DNA of 64,000 nt. Source: Bacteroidales bacterium (GTDB lineage: Bacteria; Bacteroidota; Bacteroidia; Bacteroidales; F082). Of this stretch, positions 6,001 through 35,294 are shown piece after piece (position 1 is the first letter of the stretch; each line of letters begins with the position of its first letter). The stretch is taken from contig JAFYNK010000087.1 of assembly GCA_017548125.1 (NCBI GenBank), positions 1-64,000 on the forward strand, read 5' to 3'. A model generated the notes under the pieces. It did not search any database, was not told where the DNA came from, and saw only the letters and a program-made list of their open reading frames with translations. The position numbers and the translations under genes are program-made.

Positions 6001-6300
6001 GGATTATGTTTGGAGGTATATAAAAGATTATGTAAAGAAAGTGATAATTTCAACTTGACAGAATTAGCTTTGATTACTGCCAACAAAATGGATGAGATTA
6101 TTAGAACATATATTTATCCAGAAGGTTCGTTGATGGTCGATTGGACTGCAAAAGATCGTCTTATTTGTACTATGAAGTTGGATATTGAGGATTATCTGAT
6201 TGATGAAATAAAGAGAAAATATGGAATTCCTTTAACATTTGATGATATGGATTCTATTATTGATAATTCGGTGGATGTCGCATCAAAATGGTTTCGCTAA
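3091..6300 (+). CDS. hsdR: Type I restriction endonuclease subunit HsdR
   Basis: A 1069-residue motor and nuclease subunit of the type I restriction complex. It translocates and cleaves DNA that lacks the cognate methylation. The N-terminal PD-(D/E)xK nuclease is visible near residues 150-170 as YRPDIVLF followed by VIECKRP. The SF2 translocase follows: Walker A in WHTQGSGKSLTM (about 340-351), the DEAD-box variant LIDEGHRS (about 448), MTGTPL (about 472), and motifs V/VI in KLLTGFDEPKN and QAIARVNRV (about 670-710). A helical C-terminal region binds the methylase core. Length is normal and no frame disruption is seen. The stop overlaps the next gene, consistent with an operon. Confidence 0.96.
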   Translation: MTLSFKEDHISQIPALMMLEKVGYTYLTPAEAMEMRGGNASNVLLEPILREQLAKINTVQVSSQRTTVFSEQNITAGIDALRNLPMAEGYMTASQVAYDLLTAGKTLEQIVDGDRKSYVMQYIDWKHIENNAFHVTEEFAVSRTGMSDTYRPDIVLFVNGIPLCVIECKRPDIKDSLNQAISQHLRNQKEDGIRSLYVYSALLLSTNVNEVSYATTGTPKKFWNRWTEQFVDKTAEELYRYKLSEKVNQKHVVSDISWKEYRMCAEPTVQYGSLKTPSIQDSYLYNLCRPDRLLNLMYRFTLYDDGVKKIARYQQYFAVEKVMERVRNIEGGKRRGGVIWHTQGSGKSLTMVLLAQAILLDNTIRNPRIILVTDRTDLDRQITATFRKCQVSVENATTGSNLVKLLESAGTTVITTIINKFETAVRGLKAPLEDPNIFVLIDEGHRSQYGEMGVKMEKALPNACFIAMTGTPLMKKEKSTAAKFGGIIQPIYTVDQAVKDGAVVPLLYEGRMVPQEVHADSIDRYFDRICEWMTDAQRADMKKKFSRADQINQAEQRVYAIAWDVSHHFRKNWQGSKFKAQLVAPRKRIAILYKKFLDEIGIVSSEVLITSPDTREGEDIAFGETSNTELAFWKRMMDEHGTPKKYEQSIINRFKNSENPEIIIVVDKLLTGFDEPKNTVLYLDRKLKDHTLLQAIARVNRVCDDKEFGYIVDYYGVFGNLNDALEIYTEFDQEDLVGTYTDISDEVAKLPQRHGEVWDILRMAKNQNDLEAYGELLCDEEKRVNFYEKVTAYARTLKIALSSIEFHKTISQEHIDRYKSDLTMFLKLRRTVQARYSDTIDFSQYEGQIQKLIDTHIESGEIQIITDLVNIFDKEKFAEEVEKIVGKVAKADTISSRTAKYITESMDTDPVFFKKFSKMLEETIEEYRLGRISEAEYLQRAEEIMQKVLSRTDSEIPESLQNNNAGRAYFGLCLEVYKRLCKESDNFNLTELALITANKMDEIIRTYIYPEGSLMVDWTAKDRLICTMKLDIEDYLIDEIKRKYGIPLTFDDMDSIIDNSVDVASKWFR

Positions 6301-14862: not shown

Positions 14863-15501
14863 ATGAAGAAAATCTATTTAATTATGACGCTTGTCTGTAT
14901 GATGATGGTGTCATTTAAGCCAGAAGGCGGTGATGGAAGACATGAAGGTCACGAATACGTTGACCTTGGCTTAAGTGTTAAATGGGCAACCTGCAATGTT
15001 GGAGCAAACTCACCAGAAGAATACGGAAACTATTACGCTTGTGGAGAGACAACGACAAAAGATACATACGGTTATGATAACTGCCCAACATGCGGACTTA
15101 GTACTTCAGAGTTGCAATCTCAGGGCTATATAGATAATAATGGCAATCTTACAGCGCAATATGATGCCGCCACTGCTAACTGGGGAGGCGACTGGCGTAT
15201 GCCGACATTCGATGAGCTGAACGAACTGAGAACCCAATGCACGTGGACATGGACAACACAGAAAGGCGTTAACGGCTATAAAGTTACAGGACCAAGCGGT
15301 GCAAGCATTTTCCTTCCTGCTGCTGGTTATCGCGGCGGGTCATCGCTCAACCTCTCTGGAAGCTTCGGTTACTTTTGGAGTTCGACGCCTTACGAAAGCG
15401 ATAGCTACGGCGCGTACATCCTCGGCTTCGGTAGCGTCAATCACTACATGAGCCACATCTACCGTTACTACGGTCAGAGTGTGCGCCCAGTCTTAGAATA
15501 A
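14863..15501 (+). CDS. Secreted FISUMP-domain protein
   Basis: A 212-residue exported protein. An N-terminal signal segment (residues 1-18, KKIYLIMTLVCMMMVSF) is followed by the 'Fibrobacter succinogenes major paralogous' type domain: YVDLGLSVKWATCNVGA, YACGET, WGGDWRMPTFDELNEL, FLPAAGYRG and FWSSTPY, ending GQSVRPVLE. Such proteins are abundant and extracellular in Bacteroidota; their function is unknown. It stands alone, with a GC-rich hairpin 43 bases after the stop. Confidence 0.85.
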   Translation: MKKIYLIMTLVCMMMVSFKPEGGDGRHEGHEYVDLGLSVKWATCNVGANSPEEYGNYYACGETTTKDTYGYDNCPTCGLSTSELQSQGYIDNNGNLTAQYDAATANWGGDWRMPTFDELNELRTQCTWTWTTQKGVNGYKVTGPSGASIFLPAAGYRGGSSLNLSGSFGYFWSSTPYESDSYGAYILGFGSVNHYMSHIYRYYGQSVRPVLE

Positions 15502-16803: not shown

Positions 16804-16872
16804 TAATCAAAGTAGAACCAGCCTAGCCTCTTAGCAATGCTCAAATTGGCAGGTCGTTTTTATATCTTTTCA

Positions 16873-19749
16873 ATGAATATTGATTCTATTATAGCACGGC
16901 TTCATGAGTTGGAAGAAGAAAATATAAGACTAAAAAATCTTCTGCTTAAACATGGTATTTCTTATGAAATAAATGAACAAGAAAGAGTCGCTGTTGCGTC
17001 TAAATCAGACAATACTTGTTTGGTAAAGAAAAGTTTGTCGTTGCAAGAAAAGGTTGATTTGTTTCAGGGTCTTTTCGCAGGACGAGAGGATGTTTTTGCT
17101 AAAAGATGGTATAGCGATGTTACTAAAAAGTCAGGTTATCAGCCAGTATGTGAACATGAATGGGATAGAGAGTTTTGTGATAAGAAAAAATATAAGTGTT
17201 CGGAATGTCCCAATCGTCAATTTACATCGTTAAAGTATGAGCATATATATAATCATCTTGCTGGTAAAGATTGTTACGGAAGAGATGTTATTGGTGTTTA
17301 TCCAATTATGAATGACAATACATGCAATTTTCTTTGCACTGACTTCGATGATAAGAGTTGTGTGCACGATTATAAAAATGATGTACTGGCATTCGTAGGG
17401 GTTTGCAAAGAATGGATGATTCCATGTTACATCGAACGCTCACGTTCTGGTAATGGTGCCCATATATGGATTTTTTTCGAGAAACCAATAACTGCTGCTA
17501 AAGCGAGGAAATTGGGAAATATAATTTTGTCAGAGGCTATGAATCGGGAAGCTCGTCTTTCATTTAATTCTTATGATAGGTTTTTCCCAAATCAGGATTT
17601 TTTGCCAGAAGGTGGTTTCGGCAATCTAGTAGCCTTACCTTTACAAGGAAAAGCAAGGCGTGAAGGGAATAGTGTTTTTGTGAATGAGGACTTTCAGCCA
17701 TTCCCTGATCAATGGGGATTTTTACTTGATGTCAAGAAAATAAATGAAACGTCAATTGAGGCAATTGTTCAAGAACGCAGTTCGTCTATAGGGAAGTTAA
17801 CCAAAAGTAGTGAAAGTAAACCTTGGGAAACTCCAATGATTCCTATTATTGAAAAAAATGATTTTCCACAAACTGTATTAATTACAAGAGCAAACATGTT
17901 GTTTATACCATTGTCAGGATTGTCATCAAAAGTCATAAATCATTTTAAGCGAATAGCGGCATTTTACAATCCCGAGTTTTATGCCAAACAAGGGATGCGT
18001 TTGTCAACGTATGATATACCTCGCATAATTTCATGTTCGGAGTTTACTGATGATTATATAGCAATTCCTCGTGGTTGCGAAGATGATGTAATAGATGTAT
18101 TCAAAAATTATAATGTAGATTATATAATTGAGGACAAAACTTGTCATGGACGACCGATAAATGTTGCTTTCAAAGGTGAGCTTCGTCATGAGCAAAAGTT
18201 TGCAATGGAGAGTATGCTTGTTTATAATATTGGAACACTTTCTGCAACAACGGCATTCGGGAAAACTGTATTTGCCATATCAATGATTGCAGACAGGAAA
18301 ACAAACACATTGATTTTGGTGCATAGAAAATCATTGCTTGACCAATGGAAAAAGCAGTTGGAGGAATTTTTGATAATTGAAGAGGATATTATAGGCAAAT
18401 CTAAGAATAAAAAGAATATTTCACCTATAGGTGTTCTTTGTTCTGGTAAAAACTCTTTGCACGGAATTGTTGATATTGCTTTAATACAATCATGTTTTGA
18501 AGGAAAAGAGGTAAGCAGCTTTGTTCAAGACTATGGAATGGTAATAGTTGATGAATGTCATCATGTTTCGTCTGTTAGTTTTGAACAAGTTATGCGTTGT
18601 GTGAAAGCAAAATATGTTTATGGTCTTACTGCAACTCCTATTCGCAAGGATGGTCATCAGCCTATTATTTTTATGCAATGTGGAAAGATAAGATATACGG
18701 CAGATTCTCAAATGCAAATAAGTAATCAGAATTTTACTCGTGTTTTAGTGCCTCGATTTACATCATTTCGTAATATTTTTTCTGATGAAAAAACATACAC
18801 GCAGATTATTGAGATGATGTCGAAAGACGAAACAAGAAATAAGTTAATAGTTGAGGATGTTTGTAAAGCAATTCATGAAGGACGTACGCCTATAATTCTT
18901 ACTAGTTTGACTTCACATGTTAGAACACTTGCAGAAATGTTGTCGTCTTATGTCGATAATGTTATAGTTCTTGTCGGTGCAGATTCTACAAAAGAGAAAA
19001 GACATTCAATGGAACGATTACGAGAAATATCGGCTTTTGAATCATTAGTGATAGTCGCTACTGGTAAATATATAGGTGAAGGATTTGATTATCCAAGACT
19101 TGATACATTGTTTCTAGCTTTGCCAATATCATGGAAAGGAAGTATTGCTCAGTACGCCGGACGCTTACATCGTGATAGTATAGGTAAAAAAGAAGTTAGA
19201 ATTTATGACTATGTAGATGTTAGGATACCTTTATGCAATTCGATGTATCGTAAGCGTTTGAAAGGATATGTGTCTGTGGGTTATAATACAGTTACAGCAA
19301 ATGGTAAAACTGAATTTGCAAAACAGGAATTAATTTTTGATGGTAACACTTATAAGTCAGTATTCATTCAAGATGTCATTGATATTAAGCAAAGCATTGT
19401 GATATCTTGTCAAAGGATAAAGTACAAGTTTCAGTCACGTCTTATATCACATCTTAGAGATTTGTTGAATAATGGTGTAGAGATCTCTGTACATGTCAAA
19501 GAACAAGGATACAATGAAAAAGATTTGATTGATTTGGGAATTGATGTTATTCATCGTGATGATTTATCAATACATTGTGCTATAATAGACAAGTCTATAG
19601 TTTGGTATGGAAACATCAATTTCTTTGGATATAATGATGAAGAAAATAATGTTATGAGAATTAACGATTTGTCAATTGCCAATGAATTGCTGAATATCCT
19701 ATATGATGATGACGACAAAAACATTGTTCAATTAAAAATGAATTTTTAA
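16873..19749 (+). CDS. TOTE-type primase (AEP)-SF2 helicase-PLD-like fusion
   Basis: A 958-residue protein from the ATG at 16873 (MNIDSIIARLHELEEENIRL, a short coiled coil). After a cysteine-containing segment (CEHEW...CSECPNRQF) comes an archaeo-eukaryotic primase-like domain (about 110-285): CTDFDD with catalytic acids, CYIERSRSGNGAHIWIFFE with the conserved His, and NLVALPLQGKARREGN. A DEAD/DEAH helicase follows: TTAFGKTVFAISM (Walker A), VDECHHVS, LTATPIRKDG, and a helicase C domain ending AQYAGRLHRD. The last 130 residues look like a degenerate phospholipase D fold (IHCAIIDKSIVWYGNINFFG). The combination is that of the 'TOTE conflict system' primase-helicases, inferred to act in defence or mobile-element conflict. 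It stands alone here. Confidence 0.85.
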   Translation: MNIDSIIARLHELEEENIRLKNLLLKHGISYEINEQERVAVASKSDNTCLVKKSLSLQEKVDLFQGLFAGREDVFAKRWYSDVTKKSGYQPVCEHEWDREFCDKKKYKCSECPNRQFTSLKYEHIYNHLAGKDCYGRDVIGVYPIMNDNTCNFLCTDFDDKSCVHDYKNDVLAFVGVCKEWMIPCYIERSRSGNGAHIWIFFEKPITAAKARKLGNIILSEAMNREARLSFNSYDRFFPNQDFLPEGGFGNLVALPLQGKARREGNSVFVNEDFQPFPDQWGFLLDVKKINETSIEAIVQERSSSIGKLTKSSESKPWETPMIPIIEKNDFPQTVLITRANMLFIPLSGLSSKVINHFKRIAAFYNPEFYAKQGMRLSTYDIPRIISCSEFTDDYIAIPRGCEDDVIDVFKNYNVDYIIEDKTCHGRPINVAFKGELRHEQKFAMESMLVYNIGTLSATTAFGKTVFAISMIADRKTNTLILVHRKSLLDQWKKQLEEFLIIEEDIIGKSKNKKNISPIGVLCSGKNSLHGIVDIALIQSCFEGKEVSSFVQDYGMVIVDECHHVSSVSFEQVMRCVKAKYVYGLTATPIRKDGHQPIIFMQCGKIRYTADSQMQISNQNFTRVLVPRFTSFRNIFSDEKTYTQIIEMMSKDETRNKLIVEDVCKAIHEGRTPIILTSLTSHVRTLAEMLSSYVDNVIVLVGADSTKEKRHSMERLREISAFESLVIVATGKYIGEGFDYPRLDTLFLALPISWKGSIAQYAGRLHRDSIGKKEVRIYDYVDVRIPLCNSMYRKRLKGYVSVGYNTVTANGKTEFAKQELIFDGNTYKSVFIQDVIDIKQSIVISCQRIKYKFQSRLISHLRDLLNNGVEISVHVKEQGYNEKDLIDLGIDVIHRDDLSIHCAIIDKSIVWYGNINFFGYNDEENNVMRINDLSIANELLNILYDDDDKNIVQLKMNF

Positions 19750-20416: not shown

Positions 20417-21427
20417 TTATATGATTTCATCAAATAACTCTCGTAATTTCAGTTGTAATATTTTCTTATCTGGAAGATATAATTGATACTCAGCGACCAT
20501 TGTTGGAGACAGACTTCTGTTTAATGCATATTCAACGATTTCATCATCTTTGTCTTTACATAACAAAATACCTATACTTGGATTTTCATTTGCTTTTTTA
20601 ACATCCCTATCCAATGCTTCCAAATAAAAATCCAACTGTCCTAAATACTCTGGCTTGAATTTGTCTGTTTTTAATTCAAAAGCAACAAGACATTGTATTT
20701 CACGATGATAAAATAAAAGATCTATTCTAAAGTCACTGTGCCCGACTTCTAAACGATATTCTTGGTCAATGAAAATGAAATCTTTGCCAAGTTCTAATAT
20801 AAAGTCTTTCATCTGTTTGACCAAAGCACACTTCATATTATTTTCAGAAGGAAAATCTTTGCCGCCAATGAATACCATTACATATTTGTCTTTAAACACT
20901 TTATCAGAATCAGGAACTATTTCTTTTAATGTTGTAGATGTTTTAGGAGAAGATAACATTGTTCTTTCAAAAAGAGCGCTGCTAATCTGACGTTCGAGTT
21001 CACGTTTGGAATACCTCTCTGAAATACATAGTCTCAGATAAAATTCTTTTTCTTCAATGCTTTTGGTTCTACTCAATATTATCATATTATTTGTCCAGTT
21101 AATTTCTCTCACCAGTGGTGAGAGTTTTGTATCGTATAAGGAATAATTCTCGTAAAACTGTTTCATTCTCCATAAATTCTTATTTGAGAATCCTTTTATT
21201 TCAGGATATTTTTTAGTTATATACTCTGATAATTGATTGACAACTCCAGAGCCCCATTCGGAAGTGGAAAGTTTGTAGTATAAATATTCTCCGACATTCC
21301 AGTAGAGATCGATTAATGCCGTATTAGTTATATGAATGATATTATTTCTGGAGCTCTTAATAAGTGAAACGATTTCGTCAAATTGTTCTACCAATTGCAG
21401 TTGTAAACTGCCTTTCTTCTTTTCCAT
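20417..21427 (-). CDS. YhcG/DUF1016-type PD-(D/E)XK nuclease
   Basis: A 336-residue protein from the ATG at 21427 (MEKKKGSLQLQLVEQF). A longer frame to 21523 overlaps the promoter at 21449-21480 and is rejected. The N-terminal domain (about 20-160) has the DUF1016_N pattern: ALIDLYWNVGEYLYYKL, FSNKNLWRMKQFYENY, and LVREINWTNNMIIL. The C-terminal nuclease core shows VGHSDFRIDLLFYHREIQCLVAFELKTDKFKPEYLGQLDFYLEAL, a PD-(D/E)xK arrangement. Family members occur in defence islands and on mobile elements; the exact role is unsettled. It is monocistronic and lies directly before the CRISPR leader. Confidence 0.88.
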   Translation of the reverse strand: MEKKKGSLQLQLVEQFDEIVSLIKSSRNNIIHITNTALIDLYWNVGEYLYYKLSTSEWGSGVVNQLSEYITKKYPEIKGFSNKNLWRMKQFYENYSLYDTKLSPLVREINWTNNMIILSRTKSIEEKEFYLRLCISERYSKRELERQISSALFERTMLSSPKTSTTLKEIVPDSDKVFKDKYVMVFIGGKDFPSENNMKCALVKQMKDFILELGKDFIFIDQEYRLEVGHSDFRIDLLFYHREIQCLVAFELKTDKFKPEYLGQLDFYLEALDRDVKKANENPSIGILLCKDKDDEIVEYALNRSLSPTMVAEYQLYLPDKKILQLKLRELFDEII

Positions 21428-21448
21428 GATTTCTAAATTTTGGTTCCA

Positions 21449-21480
21449 CAAAACTACAAAATCCCATATCCTTTTGTCAA
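21449..21480 (-). promoter_or_regulatory. Promoter of the YhcG-type gene (duplicated promoter family)
   Basis: TTGACA (21475-21480), 18 bases, TAGTTTTG (21449-21456) on the minus strand. About 120 bases (21449-21567) align with 14319-14436. Confidence 0.75.
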
Positions 21481-21621
21481 GCGTTTGCAAAGGAAATGTT
21501 CTGTTTTTAACAATTTTTAACATAGATGCTGTGAAAAATTAAGAAAAGGTGTTAAGATTTGTTAAGAGAATGTAGAAGTGCGGCGTTTTTTTTATTTTCT
21601 TGCCACACTCTCAGCTGAGGT

Positions 21622-21806
21622 TTTGCAGATCTCAGTCTCAATGTTTTTATGAAAAATGTTTAAAGTGTTGATATATAATAAGATGAGTATTTTATTAAAA
21701 ATGGGGTGGGGTAAAAATGTCGGAAGATGAAATTTTTGTTGTATTTATAATTGCTTAATTGATAATAATTTATAACTTTGCGAGGTCTTTTGCAGACCAA
21801 TATAGA
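21622..21806 (+). promoter_or_regulatory. CRISPR leader 1 with array promoter
   Basis: This 185-bp AT-rich block ends at the first repeat and matches 30338-30522 base for base except at three positions. It contains TTG (21751-21753), 19 bases, then TAACTTTG (21773-21780), a standard Bacteroidota promoter that would start transcription near 21787, about 20 bases before repeat 1. A short palindrome GGTCT-TTTGC-AGACC (21785-21799) abuts the array and could be a spacer-integration anchor. Confidence 0.85.
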
Positions 21807-22800
21807 GTCTATAAAGACAAATAAATTTCTACTATTGTAGATAACACAAAAGTGTTCACATTTATTTTTAGTCTATAAAGACAAATAAATTTCTACTATT
21901 GTAGATAGTCGTTGATTATAAGTATCTTTATTTGTCTATAAAGACAAATAAATTTCTACTATTGTAGATAAGTTTGTTCAATTTCTTCTCTGTTGCTGTC
22001 TATAAAGACAAATAAATTTCTACTATTGTAGATTCTCCGTAAAATTGTTGTTTGTACAGTGTCTATAAAGACAAATAAATTTCTACTATTGTAGATTGTT
22101 GACATTGTTTTGTAGTTCATGTACGTCTATAAAGACAAATAAATTTCTACTATTGTAGATAACAAAAATTCGTAGAAATTGCCAGATGGTCTATAAAGAC
22201 AAATAAATTTCTACTATTGTAGATAAGAGGTATCTGCGCCAACACCAAATATAGTCTATAAAGACAAATAAATTTCTACTATTGTAGATTGTAATTAGAT
22301 AATATTTCAATCTGTGATGTCTATAAAGACAAATAAATTTCTACTATTGTAGATATCTATGAAGAACAATCCACCTTTGGTAGTCTATAAAGACAAATAA
22401 ATTTCTACTATTGTAGATGAAGTAATTACACTCAAACTACATCTAATGTCTATAAAGACAAATAAATTTCTACTATTGTAGATGCAAGTAGGCATGTATC
22501 TCTGTGTCCTGTCTATAAAGACAAATAAATTTCTACTATTGTAGATACACTAACAGCGTTAGCGTCAAGAGTGGGTCTATAAAGACAAATAAATTTCTAC
22601 TATTGTAGATTAACTGCCATTTCCCCACGTTTAAAAACGTCTATAAAGACAAATAAATTTCTACTATTGTAGATAAGTGCAACAAGAAGCCTGTTGGATA
22701 TTGGTCTATAAAGACAAATAAATTTCTACTATTGTAGATAATATGGCATCAACACACGTTGAAGGTCTATAAAGACAAATAAATTTCTACTATTGTAGAT
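21807..22800 (+). CRISPR. CRISPR array 1: 16 repeats, 15 spacers, type V-A-like repeat
   Basis: Sixteen identical 36-base repeats start GTCTATAAAGAC and end AATTTCTACTATTGTAGAT. First repeat 21807-21842, last 22765-22800. Spacers are 25-29 bases and all different; the distal one (22740-22764) is the shortest. The 3' part of the repeat is the Cas12a-type crRNA handle (TCTAC/GTAGA pseudoknot hairpin), and the 5' end is itself palindromic (GTCT...AGAC). Orientation is set by the leader on the left and by the handle lying 5' of each spacer. No tracrRNA anti-repeat was seen, as expected for this repeat type. Confidence 0.98.
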
Positions 22801-22920: not shown

Positions 22921-26521
<3,601 letters not shown>

Positions 26522-26525
26522 CACT

Positions 26526-28532
26526 ATGGCAAAACATATTCTTGCAATAGACGAAACTGGAAGATTCTCAATGGGTAACGATGAGTCTTTCGCTTGTGGT
26601 GTGGTCGTGACTAAAGATGAATCGGAAGTGAAAAAGGCTTATCAGAAGACTTATTCCGACTTCGGTTTTCCGGAACCTGTACCAGATGATATCAAGGGTC
26701 TTCTGACTGATGATACTATTGAAAATGGAGATAAGGCTCGTTATCATTTCAATAAATTGGATGATACTCAAAAGGCATTCTGCAAATACAACCTCATGCC
26801 TTTGGTTGATGAGATTATCAAGTCGGAAGGAAAGCCAGCATTGTTTTCCAATAATCAGAACTGGTGGCTTATCGCAGTGACCGCTGTGGTAAGATGTTTC
26901 TTGAAGTCTCGTGATCTCAAAGATAATGATGAAGTTAATGTGTTCATTGATGGCAGAAAAGATACAGTATGGGGAATGGTATATGAAGAAGGAAATCAGT
27001 TAGATGATTTGTCCGACAATGACAGAAGAGACAGATATAACAGGTATCATAATAATATCAAACAGCAGATAGAAAACAACGTAAAGGCTTATGTTCCTAA
27101 AACCGTGAAGTTCAAGATTGAATTCAGGTCTGACACATCGAATGTTTATGTCAATCTTGCTGATATTGCTTGTGGTTTTGTAAGGTCTGATAAAAGAAAT
27201 ATTACGCAAAAGATAACAAGTGTGTCTTGTAAGTCCTTTATGGATGGCAACGATCCTGTGCTTGTTGCAAAAGACAATTCAACAGCAGCATTAAGTCTCA
27301 TATTCCAAGAAGTGTTTAATAACAATCTGAGAAACGTACATCTTGTTGCTGAATTGCTCAAACCTATTAGAAAAGAAAACGATAACTATGTCTTTGTCTG
27401 GGATATGTTCTACGATTTCCTGAAGTCTAAGATAGATGAACGAGCTTCAGAGTCTTCACTCGTAAAAATAAAGGAATTCGTGGATTTGTTCTTGAACGAG
27501 TTTAAGAACGTGGCTCATAACTATCTGCCTACGAATAAATATCTCGACAATCTTGTACTTTTCGTAGAATATTCTTCACATTCTGGTGAGATTGAAATGC
27601 CTTTCTGCAGAGAGTCATTCCTCAATTGCCTGAGGAAAACCGACAGTAATTCCGAGACACGACTTTTGCGTAAATGGGAGAAAATGGTAAGTTTCACTCT
27701 TAGAGAGGCGCAGGTTTATTTTAATGCATATAACTTCTCGGAGATAAATGAACATGTGGAAAATATCTGGGTACAGCATGAAAAACTGCTTGGAAGCATT
27801 TCCGACATCATTTGCGATGATAAGAAAGACGAACCTACGACGGCTTTGATAGGAACATTGGCACAGTCGTATGCCTATAAAGGCGACTTTGATAATGCGA
27901 TAGATTATTTCAATATGTCGTTGGAATATTCCGTGAAGTCTAAGAATAGAACATATTCTTTTCTCTTTACAATCTATCACAGAAACAAGGATTTGGAAAA
28001 CGCAAGAAGATATTTCGAGCTACAAAACAGCGCAACTCCGGAACAATATTATGCCAATAAGAAATATGGCGATACGTGGAAGTTGTTGTCGTATTGCAAG
28101 CTGAGAGCGCTAGAGTTGTATGTGAATGGTAATACAGAACTGCCTCATATAGAACTTTCAGAATTGAGCAGTTATAATTGCGAATATCCGTTCCCATTGG
28201 TGATGAAGTGGACTGCGATAGCTTTATATCTAGAAGATAAAGTGAAAAATAAAGCAGCAATAGAAAAACTCTTAAATGACGCTATTGCCAATTTGCTTGA
28301 GAAAGACAACGGATTTGCTATCAATACATTAGCCTTGCCTTTGATTCAATGTTATGCCTTGTTGAACAAGCAGAATCCATATCATGCAAGATATAACAAT
28401 TTGCTGAGTGAGTTTGAGAAGAAATCGGTATATTTTGCAAAATATGTTGAAAGCATGCCAGACCTTAAGGATTTGAACAATTCCCAAGACATCTGGGACC
28501 GAGCGATGTTATTGCCGTTTATTTATGCTTGA
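26526..28532 (+). CDS. RNase H-like (DUF3800-type) and helical-repeat fusion; candidate new CRISPR accessory
   Basis: A 668-residue protein between the effector (4-base gap) and cas4 (8-base overlap). The N-terminal 225 residues look like a DUF3800/RNase H-fold domain: HILAIDETGRF (D9), VNVFIDGRKD (D142) and VYVNLADIACGFV (D213) give three acids in the expected order on beta strands and the last helix. The rest is alpha-helical; about residues 380-500 read as TPR-like repeats (AQVYFNAYNFSEI, AQSYAYKGDFDNAIDYFNMSLEY, HRNKDLENARRYFEL), with more helices to the end. I know of no standard type V cas gene with this architecture. Tight packing implies co-translation with the effector and adaptation genes. 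Possible roles: a nuclease acting downstream of the effector, a crRNA or prespacer trimming factor, or a toxin/regulator. None is shown. Confidence 0.75.
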   Translation: MAKHILAIDETGRFSMGNDESFACGVVVTKDESEVKKAYQKTYSDFGFPEPVPDDIKGLLTDDTIENGDKARYHFNKLDDTQKAFCKYNLMPLVDEIIKSEGKPALFSNNQNWWLIAVTAVVRCFLKSRDLKDNDEVNVFIDGRKDTVWGMVYEEGNQLDDLSDNDRRDRYNRYHNNIKQQIENNVKAYVPKTVKFKIEFRSDTSNVYVNLADIACGFVRSDKRNITQKITSVSCKSFMDGNDPVLVAKDNSTAALSLIFQEVFNNNLRNVHLVAELLKPIRKENDNYVFVWDMFYDFLKSKIDERASESSLVKIKEFVDLFLNEFKNVAHNYLPTNKYLDNLVLFVEYSSHSGEIEMPFCRESFLNCLRKTDSNSETRLLRKWEKMVSFTLREAQVYFNAYNFSEINEHVENIWVQHEKLLGSISDIICDDKKDEPTTALIGTLAQSYAYKGDFDNAIDYFNMSLEYSVKSKNRTYSFLFTIYHRNKDLENARRYFELQNSATPEQYYANKKYGDTWKLLSYCKLRALELYVNGNTELPHIELSELSSYNCEYPFPLVMKWTAIALYLEDKVKNKAAIEKLLNDAIANLLEKDNGFAINTLALPLIQCYALLNKQNPYHARYNNLLSEFEKKSVYFAKYVESMPDLKDLNNSQDIWDRAMLLPFIYA

Positions 28533-29100
28533 TGAAATGAATAATTATATTTCCATATCAACATTAAATGATTTTACTTTTTGTCCGTATTCCATATATC
28601 TGCATAATGTATATATGGATACGAACGAGGAGGTTTACAAATCTGTTCCGCAATCCAGAGGTAAGATTGCCCATGCAAACATTGATAACAAAACCAGCAC
28701 TTCTGCGAATGAAATTCAATCTTTGCCCATTTCTTCCGACGAATTAGGTGTTATGGGTAAAATAGATGTTTATAAAAAAGATGAGAAGTTGCTTGTTGAA
28801 AGGAAATATCAGTTGAAACGTATATATCAAGGTCAGCTGTATCAGATATGGGCTCAATATTTTTGTATGATAGAGATGGGATATGAGATTGAAAATCTCG
28901 CTTTCTATGAAATTTCAACTAATAAAATGATTCCAATAAATCTGCCTTCAGATAATGAAAAACGGGAACTCTTAAGTTTTATTAAGAAATTCCATGATTA
29001 TAATCCTGAAGATGATTTTCAGGTTAACACCAACAAATGTAGTCATTGTATATATTGTAATTTATGCGATAAAACAACAGTGGAAAATGTTTACTCATAA
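28525..29100 (+). CDS. cas4: CRISPR-associated exonuclease Cas4
   Basis: A 191-residue RecB-family nuclease with an iron-sulfur cluster, used to trim prespacers and select PAM orientation. The cluster ligands are C20 (FTFCPYSIYL) and a C-terminal group (KCSHCIYCNLC, C172-C181). The nuclease core shows GKIDVY, then LVERKYQ (the E-x-K pair), and GQLYQIWAQYF, the QxxxY motif. It overlaps the preceding gene by 8 bases (an alternative ATG at 28537 would remove the overlap) and overlaps cas1 by 14. All key residues look intact. Confidence 0.93.
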   Translation: MLDEMNNYISISTLNDFTFCPYSIYLHNVYMDTNEEVYKSVPQSRGKIAHANIDNKTSTSANEIQSLPISSDELGVMGKIDVYKKDEKLLVERKYQLKRIYQGQLYQIWAQYFCMIEMGYEIENLAFYEISTNKMIPINLPSDNEKRELLSFIKKFHDYNPEDDFQVNTNKCSHCIYCNLCDKTTVENVYS

Positions 29101-30064
29101 GGATATAGAATGCAGAACAATATTTGTTATTAACTGCATGGAAAAGAGAAACCTGAGGGTTAGTAATGGAGAACTTCTTTTAGAGGAAGTTAAGGAAGAT
29201 GGAAATGTGACATTGACAAAGATGCCATTTCAAAAAATCCTTATGCTTTTCATTGTTGGTCATATAACAATTACAACACCTTTGATTGAAAAGTGTAAAA
29301 AGTTTAATGTGGCGCTAGTTGTAGTGAATTTTAATTTACGTCCTGTATTTTATTGGGCTGATTCAGCAGAGGCAAATTACATTCTAAGGAAAAAGCAGTA
29401 TTCTTTAGATAAAAATGATATTTCTATTGCTAAGATTTTGGTAAAGAATAAGATAGAAAATCAAATTGGTCTTTTGAAGAAAACCAGAATGAAAGATGAA
29501 TTGACAGTTGAAACCATATCTTCATTAAGCCGAATTCATAATATTATAGATTTGCAAGATGATTATAATAAATTGATGGGAATTGAAGGGCTTGTTTCTA
29601 AAAAATTCTTTTCGGCTTATTATCAGAAAAACAATTGGATTGCGCGACGACCAAGAGTGAAGTGTGATCCGATAAATTCTACATTAGATATTGGTTATAC
29701 AATATTGTTCAATTATATAGAATGTTTTGTGAGAATGTTTGGTTTTGATATATATGCCGGAGTTTATCATCGTCTATGGTTTAAACGTAAATCTTTAATA
29801 TGTGATTTGATGGAACCATTTAGATGTGTAATAGACAATGCTGTTAGAACTGCGTTCAATAAGAAACAATGCTCAGAAAAGGATTTTAAAAATGAGAAAG
29901 GAGAGTGGCGGTTAAAATATGAAAAGAATAAGGATTATACGAAATTGTTTTATGATGCATTGATGCCATACAAAACAGAGGTCTTTAAATATATTCAATC
30001 ATATTATAGGTGTTTTATGCAATCTAAACCTGTAGAATGTTATCCAAATTTTAAAATGAAATGA
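29087..30064 (+). CDS. cas1: CRISPR integrase Cas1 (type V-A-like)
   Basis: A 325-residue Cas1, the catalytic subunit of the Cas1-Cas2 spacer integrase. The start at 29087 (MFTHKDIECRTIFVI) matches the usual N-terminus of type V-A Cas1; the open frame extends further up but through the cas4 end. Catalytic metal ligands are visible: E167 in MGIEGLVSK, H228 in GVYHRLWFKRKS and D240 in LICDLMEPFR. Overlap with cas4 is 14 bases and with cas2 4 bases (ATGA). The gene is apparently functional. Confidence 0.96.
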   Translation: MFTHKDIECRTIFVINCMEKRNLRVSNGELLLEEVKEDGNVTLTKMPFQKILMLFIVGHITITTPLIEKCKKFNVALVVVNFNLRPVFYWADSAEANYILRKKQYSLDKNDISIAKILVKNKIENQIGLLKKTRMKDELTVETISSLSRIHNIIDLQDDYNKLMGIEGLVSKKFFSAYYQKNNWIARRPRVKCDPINSTLDIGYTILFNYIECFVRMFGFDIYAGVYHRLWFKRKSLICDLMEPFRCVIDNAVRTAFNKKQCSEKDFKNEKGEWRLKYEKNKDYTKLFYDALMPYKTEVFKYIQSYYRCFMQSKPVECYPNFKMK

Positions 30065-30330
30065 TAGTGATAAGTTACGACATAGCTGATGACAAGTTGA
30101 GAACAAGATTTTCAAAAATGCTGACAAAAAATGGTGCGATAAGATTGCAGTTTTCTGTTTATGAACTTGTTAACACAAAACGAGTTAAGGATAATATGAT
30201 GTTGAAGATAGAGAAGTTTTCCAAGCATTTTGGAGGAGAAGACAGCGTTATTATTTTTGATGTTGATAAGGAAAAGTTGACAAAATATGGTAATGCTATA
30301 CATAGAGATCAAGATGTTGTGTATTTGTAA
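30061..30330 (+). CDS. cas2: CRISPR adaptation protein Cas2
   Basis: An 89-residue Cas2. The ferredoxin-like fold is visible in MIVISYDIADDKLRTRFSKM (first strand with the conserved Asp), RLQFSVYEL and EDSVIIFDVD. It bridges Cas1 dimers during spacer capture. Its ATG overlaps the cas1 stop (ATGA). Seven bases after its stop begins the second CRISPR leader, so adaptation genes directly abut array 2. Confidence 0.95.
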   Translation: MIVISYDIADDKLRTRFSKMLTKNGAIRLQFSVYELVNTKRVKDNMMLKIEKFSKHFGGEDSVIIFDVDKEKLTKYGNAIHRDQDVVYL

Positions 30331-30337
30331 ATGTTGC

Positions 30338-30522
30338 TTTGCAGATCTCAGTCTCAATGTTTTTATGAAAAATGTTTAAAGTGTTGATATATAATAAGAT
30401 GAGTATTTTGTTAAAAATGTGGTGGGGTAAAAATGTCGGAAGATGAAATTTTTGTTGTATTTATAATTGCTTAATTGATAATAATTTATAACTTTGCAAG
30501 GTCTTTTGCAGACCAATATAGA
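30338..30522 (+). promoter_or_regulatory. CRISPR leader 2 with array promoter
   Basis: Duplicate of leader 1 without gaps; the only differences I find are an A/G near the TATTTT word, a G/T in the GGGGTGGGG word and a G/A before AGGTCT. The promoter is conserved: TTG, 19 bases, TAACTTTG (30489-30496), and so is the GGTCT-TTTGC-AGACC palindrome at the junction. Confidence 0.85.
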
Positions 30523-31391
30523 GTCTATAAAGACAAATAAATTTCTACTATTGTAGATATTTGCCTTGACAAGCCTTAAGCAGGTCTCTATAAAGACAAA
30601 TAAATTTCTACTATTGTAGATTATATAGTCCCTTTTCAACGGCTTTATTTGTCTATAAAGACAAATAAATTTCTACTATTGTAGATAGCGAGTAGATAGC
30701 ATCTTATTGTTACATGTCTATAAAGACAAATAAATTTCTACTATTGTAGATGTACCCCGTTCACACGATTTACGATTTTGTCTATAAAGACAAATAAATT
30801 TCTACTATTGTAGATTTCTTTTTCTCAATGCCAAATTACCTGGTCTATAAAGACAAATAAATTTCTACTATTGTAGATGGTGCGAAGATTATGTTACCGA
30901 TTTAAGTCTATAAAGACAAATAAATTTCTACTATTGTAGATGTCCGAGGACTCAAATCCAAGTTCATTTGTCTATAAAGACAAATAAATTTCTACTATTG
31001 TAGATATCGGAGCAGAACTTAAGATGTTAGGTGTCTATAAAGACAAATAAATTTCTACTATTGTAGATAAATATTGTTTGAAGTTTCTCCTCATCGGTCT
31101 ATAAAGACAAATAAATTTCTACTATTGTAGATAAACTACAGGTTGAGCTGTTTCTAAACTGTCTATAAAGACAAATAAATTTCTACTATTGTAGATAACG
31201 AGGTTTAAACCATTAGAATTTAGGAGTCTATAAAGACAAATAAATTTCTACTATTGTAGATATGTAACGTAATCACTTTTGAACCTTTGAAGTCTATAAA
31301 GACAAATAAATTTCTACTATTGTAGATACATTTGATTCCATACGAACATTACGATGTCTATAAAGACAAATAAATTTCTACTATTGTAGTA
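30523..31391 (+). CRISPR. CRISPR array 2: 14 repeats, 13 spacers, same repeat as array 1
   Basis: Repeats at 30523, 30586, 30651, 30716, 30780, 30843, 30906, 30970, 31033, 31097, 31161, 31226, 31292 and 31356, each 36 bases. The second has C instead of G at position 1. The last is intact for 34 bases (to 31389), then diverges (TA for AT), as expected at a leader-distal end. Spacers are 27-30 bases and share none with array 1. The effector gene and the adaptation genes lie between the two arrays, all on one strand. Confidence 0.97.
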
Positions 31392-31755: not shown

Positions 31756-33804
31756 ATGACAGAATCACCAATAACCCTCACTCCTCAACAACAGCAGGTC
31801 CTTGACAGCATTAAAGATTTTATGAATAGCGACGCTTCGGTGTTCATTCTCTGCGGTTATGCCGGTACCGGTAAGACCACTATGGTTAAACAAATCGCCG
31901 ATTTCATATCGCAGTCGAGAGATGTGGCTCTGATGGCTCCTACGGGAAGAGCTGCCCGCGTGCTGAAGAACAAGACTGGTTATGAAGCTACTACCATACA
32001 TAAGGCTATATATGCCAAGGCGGCAATGAAGGTGAAAGTGGTGAAGGATATTGCTGAGTCTGAATTTAAACTGTGTTTCCCTATAAAAAGTAATATGGAA
32101 CAAAGTGTGGTAATTGTCGATGAGGCCTCCATGCTTCGCTCTATGACGTCGGAACAGGAACTGTTTCAATTCGGTACTGATAATCTGATGGACGATCTTC
32201 TGACTTTCGCACGCGTGTCTTTCGGCGGCAAAATAATCTTCGTCGGCGACCCAGCTCAGCTGCCTCCTGTCGGCGAGGCGGAATCTCAAGCGCTGAATCC
32301 TGAATTCTTTATCGCTAAAGGTCTGAAAGTTAGACAGGCGGTATTGAACGAAGTCATAAGACAGACTGGCGACAGCGTAATCTTGAAAAACGCTATGCAG
32401 ATACGTGCCTTGCTGGAGTCTGAAAAACGTAACCGTTTGGTCTTCGATGAAAAAGCTGATGACGTGGTATCTCTGCCAGATAACGAGCTGCTCGACAGAT
32501 ATATGCAGGAAAGAAGACGGTCGGGAAAGAATGACTGCGTGGTCATTTGTCATTCTAATCATTCGGCTTCAGAATATAATAAGGAAATACGCCAGGAGTT
32601 ATATGGCGAACAGAATCCGGAATTGCAGGAAGGCGAAATACTGATGGTAGTGCAGAATAATTATCATCTCGACAGAATGAACGGAGAATTTGTCCCTGTC
32701 TTGTCTGTCGGCAATAAAGTCTCTCAGACGGCACCTGTTTATGTGCAGGAGGGAGGTGAAAGAGTCAGAAAGACCATCACATTGAATTTCCAAAATATTA
32801 CTGTCACCGACTCTGACGGGGTGCCTCGTCCATGCTTGGTTTTGCTGGATTTGTTATATAACGGCGCTGCCTCCTTGTCTATCGATGAATATCGTGCTTT
32901 GTATATCAACTTCTGCATGCGACACCCTAATTTAAAACCAGGATCGGAGGAGTTCAGCGATGCCATACAGGTGGACGAATACTATAACTGTCTCAAAGCC
33001 AAATTCGGTTATGCTGTTACAGGTCATAAATGTCAGGGCGGCGAATGGGCAAAGGCGTTCGTTGACTATAGTGGACGAACTGGCATGAGCGACGATTGCT
33101 TGCGATGGGCATATACTGCAACGACCAGAGCTAGAAAGACATTGTATTTCACCAACTATCCTCATATAACGCCTTTCTCCAAGTTTAGAATAGAACCTGT
33201 GCAGGCTTGTTCCCAAATAAATGAGGAATGCAGAGTGCTCGCTCAAGTCGAGCCTTCTCCATATCATAAGGAATCAGATCCTAATTATCTTCATGCGAAA
33301 TACCGCTGTATAATGCAGAATATGAAATGGACGCCTTACAGCATCGATGGCGTCGTCAGCAGACCGTGGCAGGAAATATACCAGATTAAGACTCCTGACG
33401 GAATAGAACGCTATGACATACTATATAAGAAAGGCGGAGTCTTCGCAAAAGCCGTTCCTCAGTCTAAGACAAAACATACCGACATGATTTTGTTGATGCT
33501 TAACGATGAGCGTTCGATGCCTATAGTCTTTGATTATAAGCCTTCAACTGCTATCCATGAACAGTTGTTTAACGTTATTCGCTCGGCATGTGATGGATTG
33601 AGCATACAGATTACCAATGTGGTGGAACATAAGGAGGATTATAATGTGATGTTTTATTTCCGAACGTCAGATACGATGTCGAGCATGAAAATATATATAG
33701 ACGCTTCAGGCTTTGTCACCTACGCCAAACCTATGTCTTTTATAGGATTGAACGACAATGAACTGATGCTGCTTGTTGAAAGAATAAACAATCATTTTGA
33801 TTAG
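31756..33804 (+). CDS. RecD/Pif1-like SF1 DNA helicase (AAA family ATPase)
   Basis: A 682-residue SF1B-type helicase. Walker A is LCGYAGTGKTTMVKQ (about residues 32-46), motif Ia ALMAPTGRAARVLKN, Walker B VVIVDEASML, motif III FVGDPAQLPPVGE, motif IV-VI region FGYAVTGHKCQGGEW and RWAYTATTRARKTL (UvrD_C_2-like). The C-terminal 200 residues (after about 490) are an additional domain without obvious motifs. It is followed after 2 bases by the TPR/S1-like gene, so the product probably works with it. The helicase could serve DNA repair or a conflict system. Confidence 0.88.
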   Translation: MTESPITLTPQQQQVLDSIKDFMNSDASVFILCGYAGTGKTTMVKQIADFISQSRDVALMAPTGRAARVLKNKTGYEATTIHKAIYAKAAMKVKVVKDIAESEFKLCFPIKSNMEQSVVIVDEASMLRSMTSEQELFQFGTDNLMDDLLTFARVSFGGKIIFVGDPAQLPPVGEAESQALNPEFFIAKGLKVRQAVLNEVIRQTGDSVILKNAMQIRALLESEKRNRLVFDEKADDVVSLPDNELLDRYMQERRRSGKNDCVVICHSNHSASEYNKEIRQELYGEQNPELQEGEILMVVQNNYHLDRMNGEFVPVLSVGNKVSQTAPVYVQEGGERVRKTITLNFQNITVTDSDGVPRPCLVLLDLLYNGAASLSIDEYRALYINFCMRHPNLKPGSEEFSDAIQVDEYYNCLKAKFGYAVTGHKCQGGEWAKAFVDYSGRTGMSDDCLRWAYTATTRARKTLYFTNYPHITPFSKFRIEPVQACSQINEECRVLAQVEPSPYHKESDPNYLHAKYRCIMQNMKWTPYSIDGVVSRPWQEIYQIKTPDGIERYDILYKKGGVFAKAVPQSKTKHTDMILLMLNDERSMPIVFDYKPSTAIHEQLFNVIRSACDGLSIQITNVVEHKEDYNVMFYFRTSDTMSSMKIYIDASGFVTYAKPMSFIGLNDNELMLLVERINNHFD

Positions 33805-33806
33805 TT

Positions 33807-35294
33807 ATGGCAACGATAAAAGATATTACCTCAATGTGTAAAGCTGGTCATGTGGCAGCAGCCTATGACTTGGCAAGAGCAGACTGTGACGCCGCTCCTG
33901 ATAACGTATGGGCGCAGCGTGAAATGGGTTGGGCTTTGTATTATATGATTAAAGATGATGTGGAAAGAAATGATCATCAGTCGTTTTATACTCATCTGGA
34001 AGAATTGTCTCAGCTTAGTCTGCTGAATGTGCAGGATGACGCATTCATTTTTGATAGTCTGTTGTGGAAGTTTGTCGATATAATAAAACAGATTCCAGTT
34101 GACAGGACGTATGAGATGGATCGTATCTTTTCTTTTCTATGTAATTATACCTTCGCTTCATCAGTAGGATATTCGGTATTGCTAAAGCAGACGCTAAAGT
34201 TCGATACATGGAATCATTTGCTTGACTTCTTCGAATGGTGGAACATAGATAAGCTGATGCCTGAAGATTATCATCCTTTTCAAATGGATAATGGCAAGAA
34301 GGTGATGGCGCTGGCAGAACAGGCTTATATAGCATACTCAAAAGCATTGCTGAAACTTAACGACAGTGACAAGATACGTGGTTTTGTTCCTAAGATAGAA
34401 AAGCTGGTGGATGACTATCCTGACATGATGTATCCGGGTTATTTCTGTGGAAAGCTGCTGCTTGCTATGGGAGCGGAGCGTGAGGATGCGTTGAACATAG
34501 TGATGCCTTTCGTGAGAAAGAAAAAGACAGAGTTTTGGGTCTGGCAGCTGCTCGCTGAAATATATAAGGATGACAAGGATATTCAGCTGGCTTGTCTGCT
34601 GCGTGCCGTACATTGTCGTACTCAGGAGACTTTCCTTGGCAAGGTGCGTATGAAACTGGTGTCTGTCTATGCGCAGAGACGAGATTATGCTCGTGCTAAA
34701 TATCATCTGGATCTCATGACCAGCTGTTATCTGGAACAAGGTTGGCGTTTGCCTTATGAGGCACAGTCCTGGATGAGAGAGACATGGGTGAACACCGTAC
34801 AGTCTGACGCCACCGACGGCTTGGATTACAGACAATACACCGATGCTATATTGGCACGTGGCGCAAACCAAAGCATAGCTGTCGTTACTTATGTGGACAT
34901 GACAAGGAGACGCGCGTCGCTCATCTATGGGGAAAGGAAACGTGTCAATGTGCCGCTTTCTAATTTGGGTTTAAAGGTAAAGGATGGAACATTACTCGAG
35001 CTGAAATGGTTTCCTGGAAATGATGAGAATATTGTCGTTGCAGCCGCAAAGTTTGCTGACAAAGACGCTCTGAAAGGAGTTTCCTACATCAGATTGATAA
35101 AAGGAAAAATATCAAAACGAGACAACCAAGCGTTCGCATTTGTCAATGGGGGAGACGTACAATGTTTTATAAAACCAGAGATGGTGCAGAAACATAATAT
35201 ACGAAATAACGATGAAGTGACGGTCTTGGCCGCACTTGATTACAATAAAGGAAAAAATAGTTGGAATTGGACCGCAGTGTCATTAACAAAATAA
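33807..35294 (+). CDS. TPR-rich protein with C-terminal S1/CSD-like domains (TOTE-associated type)
   Basis: A 495-residue cytoplasmic protein, no signal peptide. Residues 1-330 are helical repeats (CKAGHVAAAYDLARADCDAAPDNVWAQREMGWALYY and later AQRRDYARAKYHLDLM). The last 140 residues are beta-rich: VVTYVDMTRRRASLIYGERKRVNVPLS, then VQCFIKPEMVQKHNIRNNDEVTVLA, reading as two OB-fold S1/cold-shock-like domains. Proteins of this build are annotated as TOTE conflict-system S1/CSD proteins (with a DUF7017-like core); this link is from memory and not searched. It is in an operon with a helicase upstream (2 bases) and TerB downstream (6 bases). Confidence 0.7.
   Translation: MATIKDITSMCKAGHVAAAYDLARADCDAAPDNVWAQREMGWALYYMIKDDVERNDHQSFYTHLEELSQLSLLNVQDDAFIFDSLLWKFVDIIKQIPVDRTYEMDRIFSFLCNYTFASSVGYSVLLKQTLKFDTWNHLLDFFEWWNIDKLMPEDYHPFQMDNGKKVMALAEQAYIAYSKALLKLNDSDKIRGFVPKIEKLVDDYPDMMYPGYFCGKLLLAMGAEREDALNIVMPFVRKKKTEFWVWQLLAEIYKDDKDIQLACLLRAVHCRTQETFLGKVRMKLVSVYAQRRDYARAKYHLDLMTSCYLEQGWRLPYEAQSWMRETWVNTVQSDATDGLDYRQYTDAILARGANQSIAVVTYVDMTRRRASLIYGERKRVNVPLSNLGLKVKDGTLLELKWFPGNDENIVVAAAKFADKDALKGVSYIRLIKGKISKRDNQAFAFVNGGDVQCFIKPEMVQKHNIRNNDEVTVLAALDYNKGKNSWNWTAVSLTK

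Follow-up and report, generated by a model that had tools for sequence, protein, structure and literature searches.

A TPR-DUF3800 gene recurs directly after the effectors Cas12a3 and Cas12a2 and may encode an accessory nuclease for type V systems triggered by RNA

A protein that combines a TPR region with a DUF3800 domain is described, in the passages of Altae-Tran et al. 2023 that concern it (PMC10910872), together with a sub-branch of Cas12a2, occasionally accompanied by UvrD and another TPR protein, and, according to the 2025 classification, some V-A2 and VI-F loci carry a DUF3800 nuclease with an RNase H fold (PMC12669027). The effector Cas12a3 is the subject of a separate paper, which reports that RNA-triggered Cas12a3 orthologues cut tRNA tails and that the purified Ba1Cas12a3 does so without a TPR-DUF3800 protein (PMC12851939). 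Here, we have analysed a stretch of 64,000 nucleotides (the window), in which a gene for a TPR-DUF3800 protein, P0001, lies next to a Cas12a3 effector. The first-pass annotation of the window had presented P0001 as undescribed and as having an architecture known from no standard Cas protein; both statements overlook PMC10910872 and PMC12669027, whose relevant passages already contain, respectively, the TPR-DUF3800 protein with Cas12a2 and the DUF3800 nuclease.

The operon of the window consists of five genes that are located between two CRISPR arrays, in the order array 1, cas12a3, P0001, cas4, cas1, cas2, array 2:

21807..22800, + strand: CRISPR array 1, 16 repeats of 36 nt, upstream of the effector
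22997..26521, + strand: cas12a3 effector, 1174 aa; PDB 21we/21wj at 2635 bits, Ba1Cas12a3 9hlx at 1186 bits
26526..28532, + strand: TPR-DUF3800 accessory gene (P0001), 668 aa; intact ORF with an ATG start and syntenic relatives
28537..29100, + strand: cas4; TIGR04328 at 254 bits; the ORF opens at 28525, likely start at 28537
29087..30064, + strand: cas1; TIGR04329 at 452 bits; the ORF opens at 28994, likely start at 29087 by one relative
30061..30330, + strand: cas2; PF09827 at 1e-13
30523..31391, + strand: CRISPR array 2, 14 repeats at no more than 4 mismatches (one weaker copy is added in another count); repeat as in array 1

The ORF at 26526-28532 is borne out as a gene of 668 residues, starting 4 bases past the stop of the effector, as had been annotated. 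The 8-base overlap with cas4 that had also been annotated depends on an ATG that does exist at 28525; when the window Cas4 is aligned with five others, however, its Met5 (base 28537) coincides with the first Met of every one of them, so that a gap of 4 bases between P0001 and cas4 is likelier, and the overlap is probably an artefact of the choice of start codon.

Several further observations concern the surroundings of the operon. The 222-nt stretch leading into each array (21622-21843 and 30338-30559) is duplicated at 99% identity, and recombination between these near-identical leader regions on both sides of the cas operon could delete it. A DUF1016/YhcG PDDEXK nuclease gene (20417-21523, - strand) is situated just upstream of array 1. 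TOTE-domain genes occur on both sides of the CRISPR locus (16837-19749, 31756-33804 and 33807-35294), comprising an AEP-TOTE gene with a helicase, a second helicase gene with TBP-TOTE and a match to UvrD_C_2 (1.7e-10), which begins beyond array 2 at 31756 and is read as a TOTE gene, and a DUF7017 gene with S1CSD-TOTE-2; the CRISPR locus is placed as if it had been inserted into a TOTE cluster or were part of a defence island. The spacers gave no phage match below E 0.08, some of the matches being to the repeat itself, and the Rfam scan returned a sub-threshold snoRNA match only.

The effector had been annotated as Cas12a2-like; its match to PDB 21we corrects this to Cas12a3. The window effector does not differ from 21we/21wj over residues about 1-970, the 2635 bits covering all 1174 residues; its identity to Ba1Cas12a3 is about 54%. 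Its RuvC acids D733, E1052 and D1156 correspond to D712, E1032 and D1137, the residues mutated in Ba1Cas12a3, and the cysteines of its zinc ribbon align with those of Cas12a3. Residues 855-960 of Ba1Cas12a3 are the tRNA-loading domain insert according to PMC12851939; the corresponding region is present in the window effector and in the effectors of two other loci (L008 and L009), and is largely missing in that of a third (L046).

The comparison with other genomes has revealed two more loci in which a relative of P0001 follows an RNA-triggered effector. A search of the genus (98 other genomes) with the window effector brought up one clear Cas12a3 relative (G869, locus L049), from another species, 72% identical to the window effector, and one marginal short match (G039, 9.8e-4). 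The L049 partner begins 5 bases past this effector and is 53% identical to P0001; cas4, cas1, cas2 and an array follow. Solitary repeats upstream of the L049 effector and beyond the array (6168-6218 and 15021-15071) are perhaps relics of a second array. A two-row profile built from these partners, applied to 295 genomes of the order, brought up a further clear relative (G236, locus L064), from another family; this partner is 45% identical, starts 2 bases past its effector and is cut at residue 423 by the end of the contig. The L064 effector (1292 aa) has a sole PDB match at E <= 0.01, namely 8d49 (5.6e-186), recorded as an "OrfB_Zn_ribbon domain-containing protein", which we take to be SuCas12a2, and the effector is taken as Cas12a2.

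In 247 genomes of the phylum, the two-row profile gave no additional clear relative; over the order and phylum sets together it gave 12 further short matches, ten of them in the TPR stretch and the remaining two, in G524 and G310, outside it. A match in G593 has been set aside, since it sits in a frame that is presumably that of a chorismate-utilising enzyme. Among 149 genomes, the sole full-length match to P0001 is the window's own, two others covering 64-67 residues in the TPR part; searches of plasmids, of phages and of viral and genome contigs gave no relative of P0001, and neither the two-row partner alignment nor the effector alignment A1 found anything in viral contigs. No DUF3800-associated Rfam RNA was found near the window operon or in L049 or L064.

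The partner thus stands directly 3' of the effector all three times, separated from it by 4 (window), 5 (L049) and 2 (L064) bases, and adjoins a Cas12a2/3/4-type effector in three of the seven loci examined, a recurrence beside related effectors for which the first-pass annotation had proposed to look. As judged from the sequences, the arrangement is more than chance, given two more syntenic occurrences with the acids kept, and the P0001 gene is a real member of the CRISPR operon; its reading as an artefact ORF is ruled out by the two conserved relatives.

The four loci that do without a TPR-DUF3800 gene, which count against a partner role, are arranged as follows:

L008: Cas12a, Cas12a3, cas4; slot between effector and cas4 empty
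L009 (Ferruginibacter): Cas12a, Cas12a3, RhuM-family gene, cas4, cas1
L046: Cas12a, related effector (38% identical; clade unassigned), cas4, cas1, cas2; slot empty
G237 fragment: effector end, cas4, cas1; slot empty

The names cas1, cas2 and cas4 in L005, L008, L009, L046 and L049 are a reading of the sequences, supplemented by alignment for cas4. L008 is the Ba1Cas12a3 locus itself (2581 bits over all 1160 residues), and the cutting of tRNA tails by purified Ba1Cas12a3 alone likewise counts against a partner role. The RhuM-family gene of L009 (PF13310, 4.7e-106; L009:12516-13565) fills the slot between Cas12a3 and cas4 that is used by the TPR-DUF3800 gene elsewhere.

A canonical Cas12a is located directly upstream of Cas12a3 or the related effector in L008, L009 and L046, as called with the PADLOC Cas12a models (at least 1378 bits for PDLC01229 in each); the tandem effectors share one set of adaptation genes. 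The canonical Cas12a profile, which as a positive control found the Cas12a of G789, found nothing in the three partner-bearing genomes except the Cas12a2 of G236 itself. The opposition between partner and tandem Cas12a is suggestive only, at three loci against three, partly related ones.

This opposition bears on the proposal that P0001 makes, trims or degrades crRNA, one of the options suggested for the TPR-DUF3800 protein in the account of Altae-Tran et al. (PMC10910872). RNA is a conceivable substrate for a nuclease of RNase H fold, and the three loci without the partner gene that carry a tandem Cas12a have in it a second possible crRNA processor. Against this stand the repeats of the window, which resemble Cas12a repeats. 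The Cas12a3-type clades, moreover, keep the crRNA-processing residues, as stated in PMC12851939, and we consider a role in crRNA metabolism unlikely.

The domain composition of P0001 and the residues of its predicted active site are given below:

26526..27200, + strand: DUF3800 domain (predicted RNase H fold), P0001 residues 1-225; PF12686 at 21.4 bits and a profile-profile match
26550..26552, + strand: D9, next residue E10; kept in 3/3 partners and in 21/21 DUF3800 relatives aligned
26949..26951, + strand: D142; kept in 3/3 partners; third acid of the family by motif (FIDGRKD / YLDIKD), not by alignment
27162..27164, + strand: D213 (NLAD); kept in 3/3 partners and in 21/21 DUF3800 relatives aligned
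27273..28529, + strand: helical region, P0001 residues 250-668; TPR-like stretch at about 444-515; low-confidence model

Residues 1-225 match PF12686 over profile positions 4-147 of 149, slightly above the cut-off of 21.0 bits, and the score falls with the length of the piece (21.1, 20.7 and 20.3 bits for residues 1-240, 1-260 and 1-300), DUF3800 not being listed by Pfam at E <= 1 for the full-length protein. None of four controls (one reversed, three shuffled) matched DUF3800, one of them having an unrelated weak match. The domain of the L049 partner scores 21.9 bits (17.2 at full length) and that of the L064 partner 17.1 bits, under the cut-off.

The relation to DUF3800 has also been examined by comparing a three-row profile of the partners with an alignment of DUF3800 relatives, for which 21 of 24 rows were used, L020, L029 and L034 being dropped as broken or partial frames. 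Against nine DUF3800 proteins of the order the profile matched at 90.5% (E 1.4e-6; 30 column shuffles at most 1.1%) and against all 21 relatives at 23.5% (E 8.6e-4; shuffles, again 30, at most 2.5%); against the other 12 it reached 1.0%, not better than its 30 shuffles (at most 6.5%). The two subgroups were divided by presence of a (D/N)(I/V)KDT motif, a split set before the result. An HMM of the 21 relatives gave 8.8 bits for residues 1-240, the best of 200 shuffles reaching 6.6, and 4.9 bits for the full P0001, under the best shuffle; two HMMs of the motif segments (21 and 12 rows) scored P0001 below shuffles (1000 shuffles, 51 background frames). The match is, at the sequence level, weak yet reproducible, and P0001 likely belongs to the DUF3800 family as a diverged subgroup, the Pfam score being borderline and the profile match clear for the nine-member subgroup. 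A reading of P0001 as a housekeeping enzyme is ruled out, DUF3800 being its sole family match over a cut-off.

Residues D9, E10, H74, D142 and D213 are invariant in the three partners (window, L049, L064); the first-pass annotation had named D9, D142 and D213, which are indeed present and conserved in all three proteins. Its reading of the protein as DUF3800/RNase H followed by helical repeats also holds up as a prediction, by the Pfam score of residues 1-225 and, for the C-terminal part, by the match of designed consensus TPR proteins to about residues 444-515 (8bu0 over 444-510, E 4.7e-9), with the remainder appearing as helices in the low-confidence model only. Pfam scores for TPR lie under the cut-offs (TPR_1 on P0001 at 22.8 bits against 27.8; TPR_8 on the L049 partner at 21.4 against 25.7). 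The predicted structures are of low quality, with a mean pLDDT of 44 and 45, and a Foldseek search gave no match at E <= 0.001. The RNase H fold of P0001 is predicted from the order of its elements and from the published AlphaFold2 model of a related TPR-DUF3800 protein, in which the fold appears with a catalytic rearrangement, as that model is described in PMC10910872.

The distances between the loci differ markedly for effector and partner. By maximum likelihood (LG+G4), the effectors of the window and L049 are 0.386 apart and those of the window and L064 3.04; the corresponding values for the partner, over the shared part, are 0.915 and 1.064. From the pair within Cas12a3 to the pair with Cas12a2, the distance rises 7.9-fold for the effector and 1.16-fold for the partner, and in the effector tree, with Cas12a as outgroup, L008, L009 and L046 fall between the two partner-bearing Cas12a3 and L064. 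Co-descent would need the partner to evolve fast within the genus and slowly outside it, so that, on these sequences, it is likelier that the partner was transferred between loci of the two effector types, that it was gained more than once, or that the effector was replaced beside it; over only three partner sequences, the partner seems to have been exchanged between effector clades.

Such apparent exchange argues against P0001 serving spacer acquisition with Cas4, Cas1 and Cas2, a role that would suit the position of the gene, which separates the effector from cas4 in the window and in L049, the loci that are complete there. The overlap with cas4 being improbable, and cas4 being kept in all four loci without the partner, three of which also have cas1, we hold this role to be quite unlikely.

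In the comparison within Cas12a3, the partner has a higher rate of evolution than the other operon genes, with a dN of 0.39 as opposed to 0.20 for the effector, 0.20 for cas4, 0.14 for cas1 and 0.17 for cas2; dN alone has been used because dS is saturated, and undefined for cas2. This rate would fit a gene that is a mere passenger or serves defence on its own, in an effector-cas4 slot that tolerates insertions, as would the RhuM-family gene in the slot of L009 and the empty slots of L008, L046 and the G237 fragment. A passenger would hardly be expected, however, in three occurrences from two families, two with Cas12a3 and one with Cas12a2, always directly past an RNA-triggered effector and with the acids kept, nor would the lack of any full-length match among the 149 genomes beyond the window's own; we therefore assign this reading a low probability.

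We propose, instead, that P0001 is an accessory protein with nuclease activity that serves type V effectors triggered by RNA. Residues 1-225, as a diverged DUF3800 domain with a predicted RNase H fold, would hold the active site D9/E10 - H74 - D142 - D213, and the C-terminal helical/TPR half would most likely serve for docking, either to the effector complex itself or to a shared partner. Once a target RNA has switched on Cas12a3 (Cas12a2 elsewhere), the nuclease would attack a further nucleic acid, with RNA as the likelier substrate, and this second cut would alter the strength or duration of the response. Since the same partner occurs with effectors of different chemistry, its role should be common to both; the common ground may be the complex once it is loaded with crRNA and triggered by RNA, the RNAs of that complex, or the cell in its arrested state. 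The proposal builds on the gene order, the three occurrences, the kept acids, the relation to DUF3800 and the exchange-like distances. On this basis, a functional partnership of P0001 with the CRISPR system is highly probable; that it acts as an interference nuclease is about an even bet, the nuclease activity, the docking and the stage of interference being what we infer.

One variant would have P0001 act as a safety device: by cleaving, for instance, the guide or the trigger RNA while it is bound, it would terminate the response. RNA cleavage by an RNase H fold would be in keeping with this, and Cas12a3 spares its bound target, as reported in PMC12851939, so that something may have to end activation; the Ba1Cas12a3 locus manages without the gene, however, and we hold the safety device to be very improbable. 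A bolder extension of the accessory-nuclease proposal, which we put forward as speculative and unlikely, is that of a transferable module for RNA-triggered effectors, which would replace the contribution of the tandem Cas12a of sister loci and, through cleavage of the RNA of the effector or its products, determine how long or how deep the abortive response is; if true, the module would plug in whatever the effectors cut, be it tRNA tails (Cas12a3) or DNA and RNA (Cas12a2).

Once triggered by RNA, both Cas12a2 and Cas12a3 bring the host to arrest. The partner offers a testable handle on how this response is limited or reinforced; it is common to two RNA-triggered effectors and missing in those of the loci examined that have a tandem Cas12a. 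For those who use Cas12a3, the native operon of the solved effector has one extra gene. The main text of PMC12851939 makes no mention of an accessory, an operon or TPR, and the paper is absent from the DUF3800 literature among the matches listed; by titles, and with supplements outside the search, the matches listed included no further CRISPR paper on the TPR-DUF3800 protein.

Compared with the known systems, P0001 is set apart from the stand-alone DUF3800 (PF12686) proteins, which match it weakly in sequence and have in common with it the invariant first D-E and the last D; their frames in 99 genomes of the order measure 222-324 aa, except one of 392 and broken ones, and have no room for the 400-residue helical half. 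The VI-F/V-A2 DUF3800 nuclease belongs to the same family and is likewise a class 2 accessory; the one sentence on it that we cite from PMC12669027 does not include Cas12a3. The Cas12a2 systems with TPR-DUF3800 of Altae-Tran et al., as presented in the passages cited, have the same gene pair and domain architecture as here, with an RNase H-like fold predicted there too; they are called a sub-branch of Cas12a2, in a paper that is older than the name Cas12a3, and sometimes include UvrD, whereas none of the five operon genes of the window is a UvrD helicase. In the window, the neighbour of P0001 is Cas12a3, the effector of PDB 21we and 9hlx (PMC12851939). What is new here, with no claim that the link to Cas12a3 is absent from print, is that the TPR-DUF3800 protein occurs with two effectors of different chemistry, Cas12a3 and Cas12a2.
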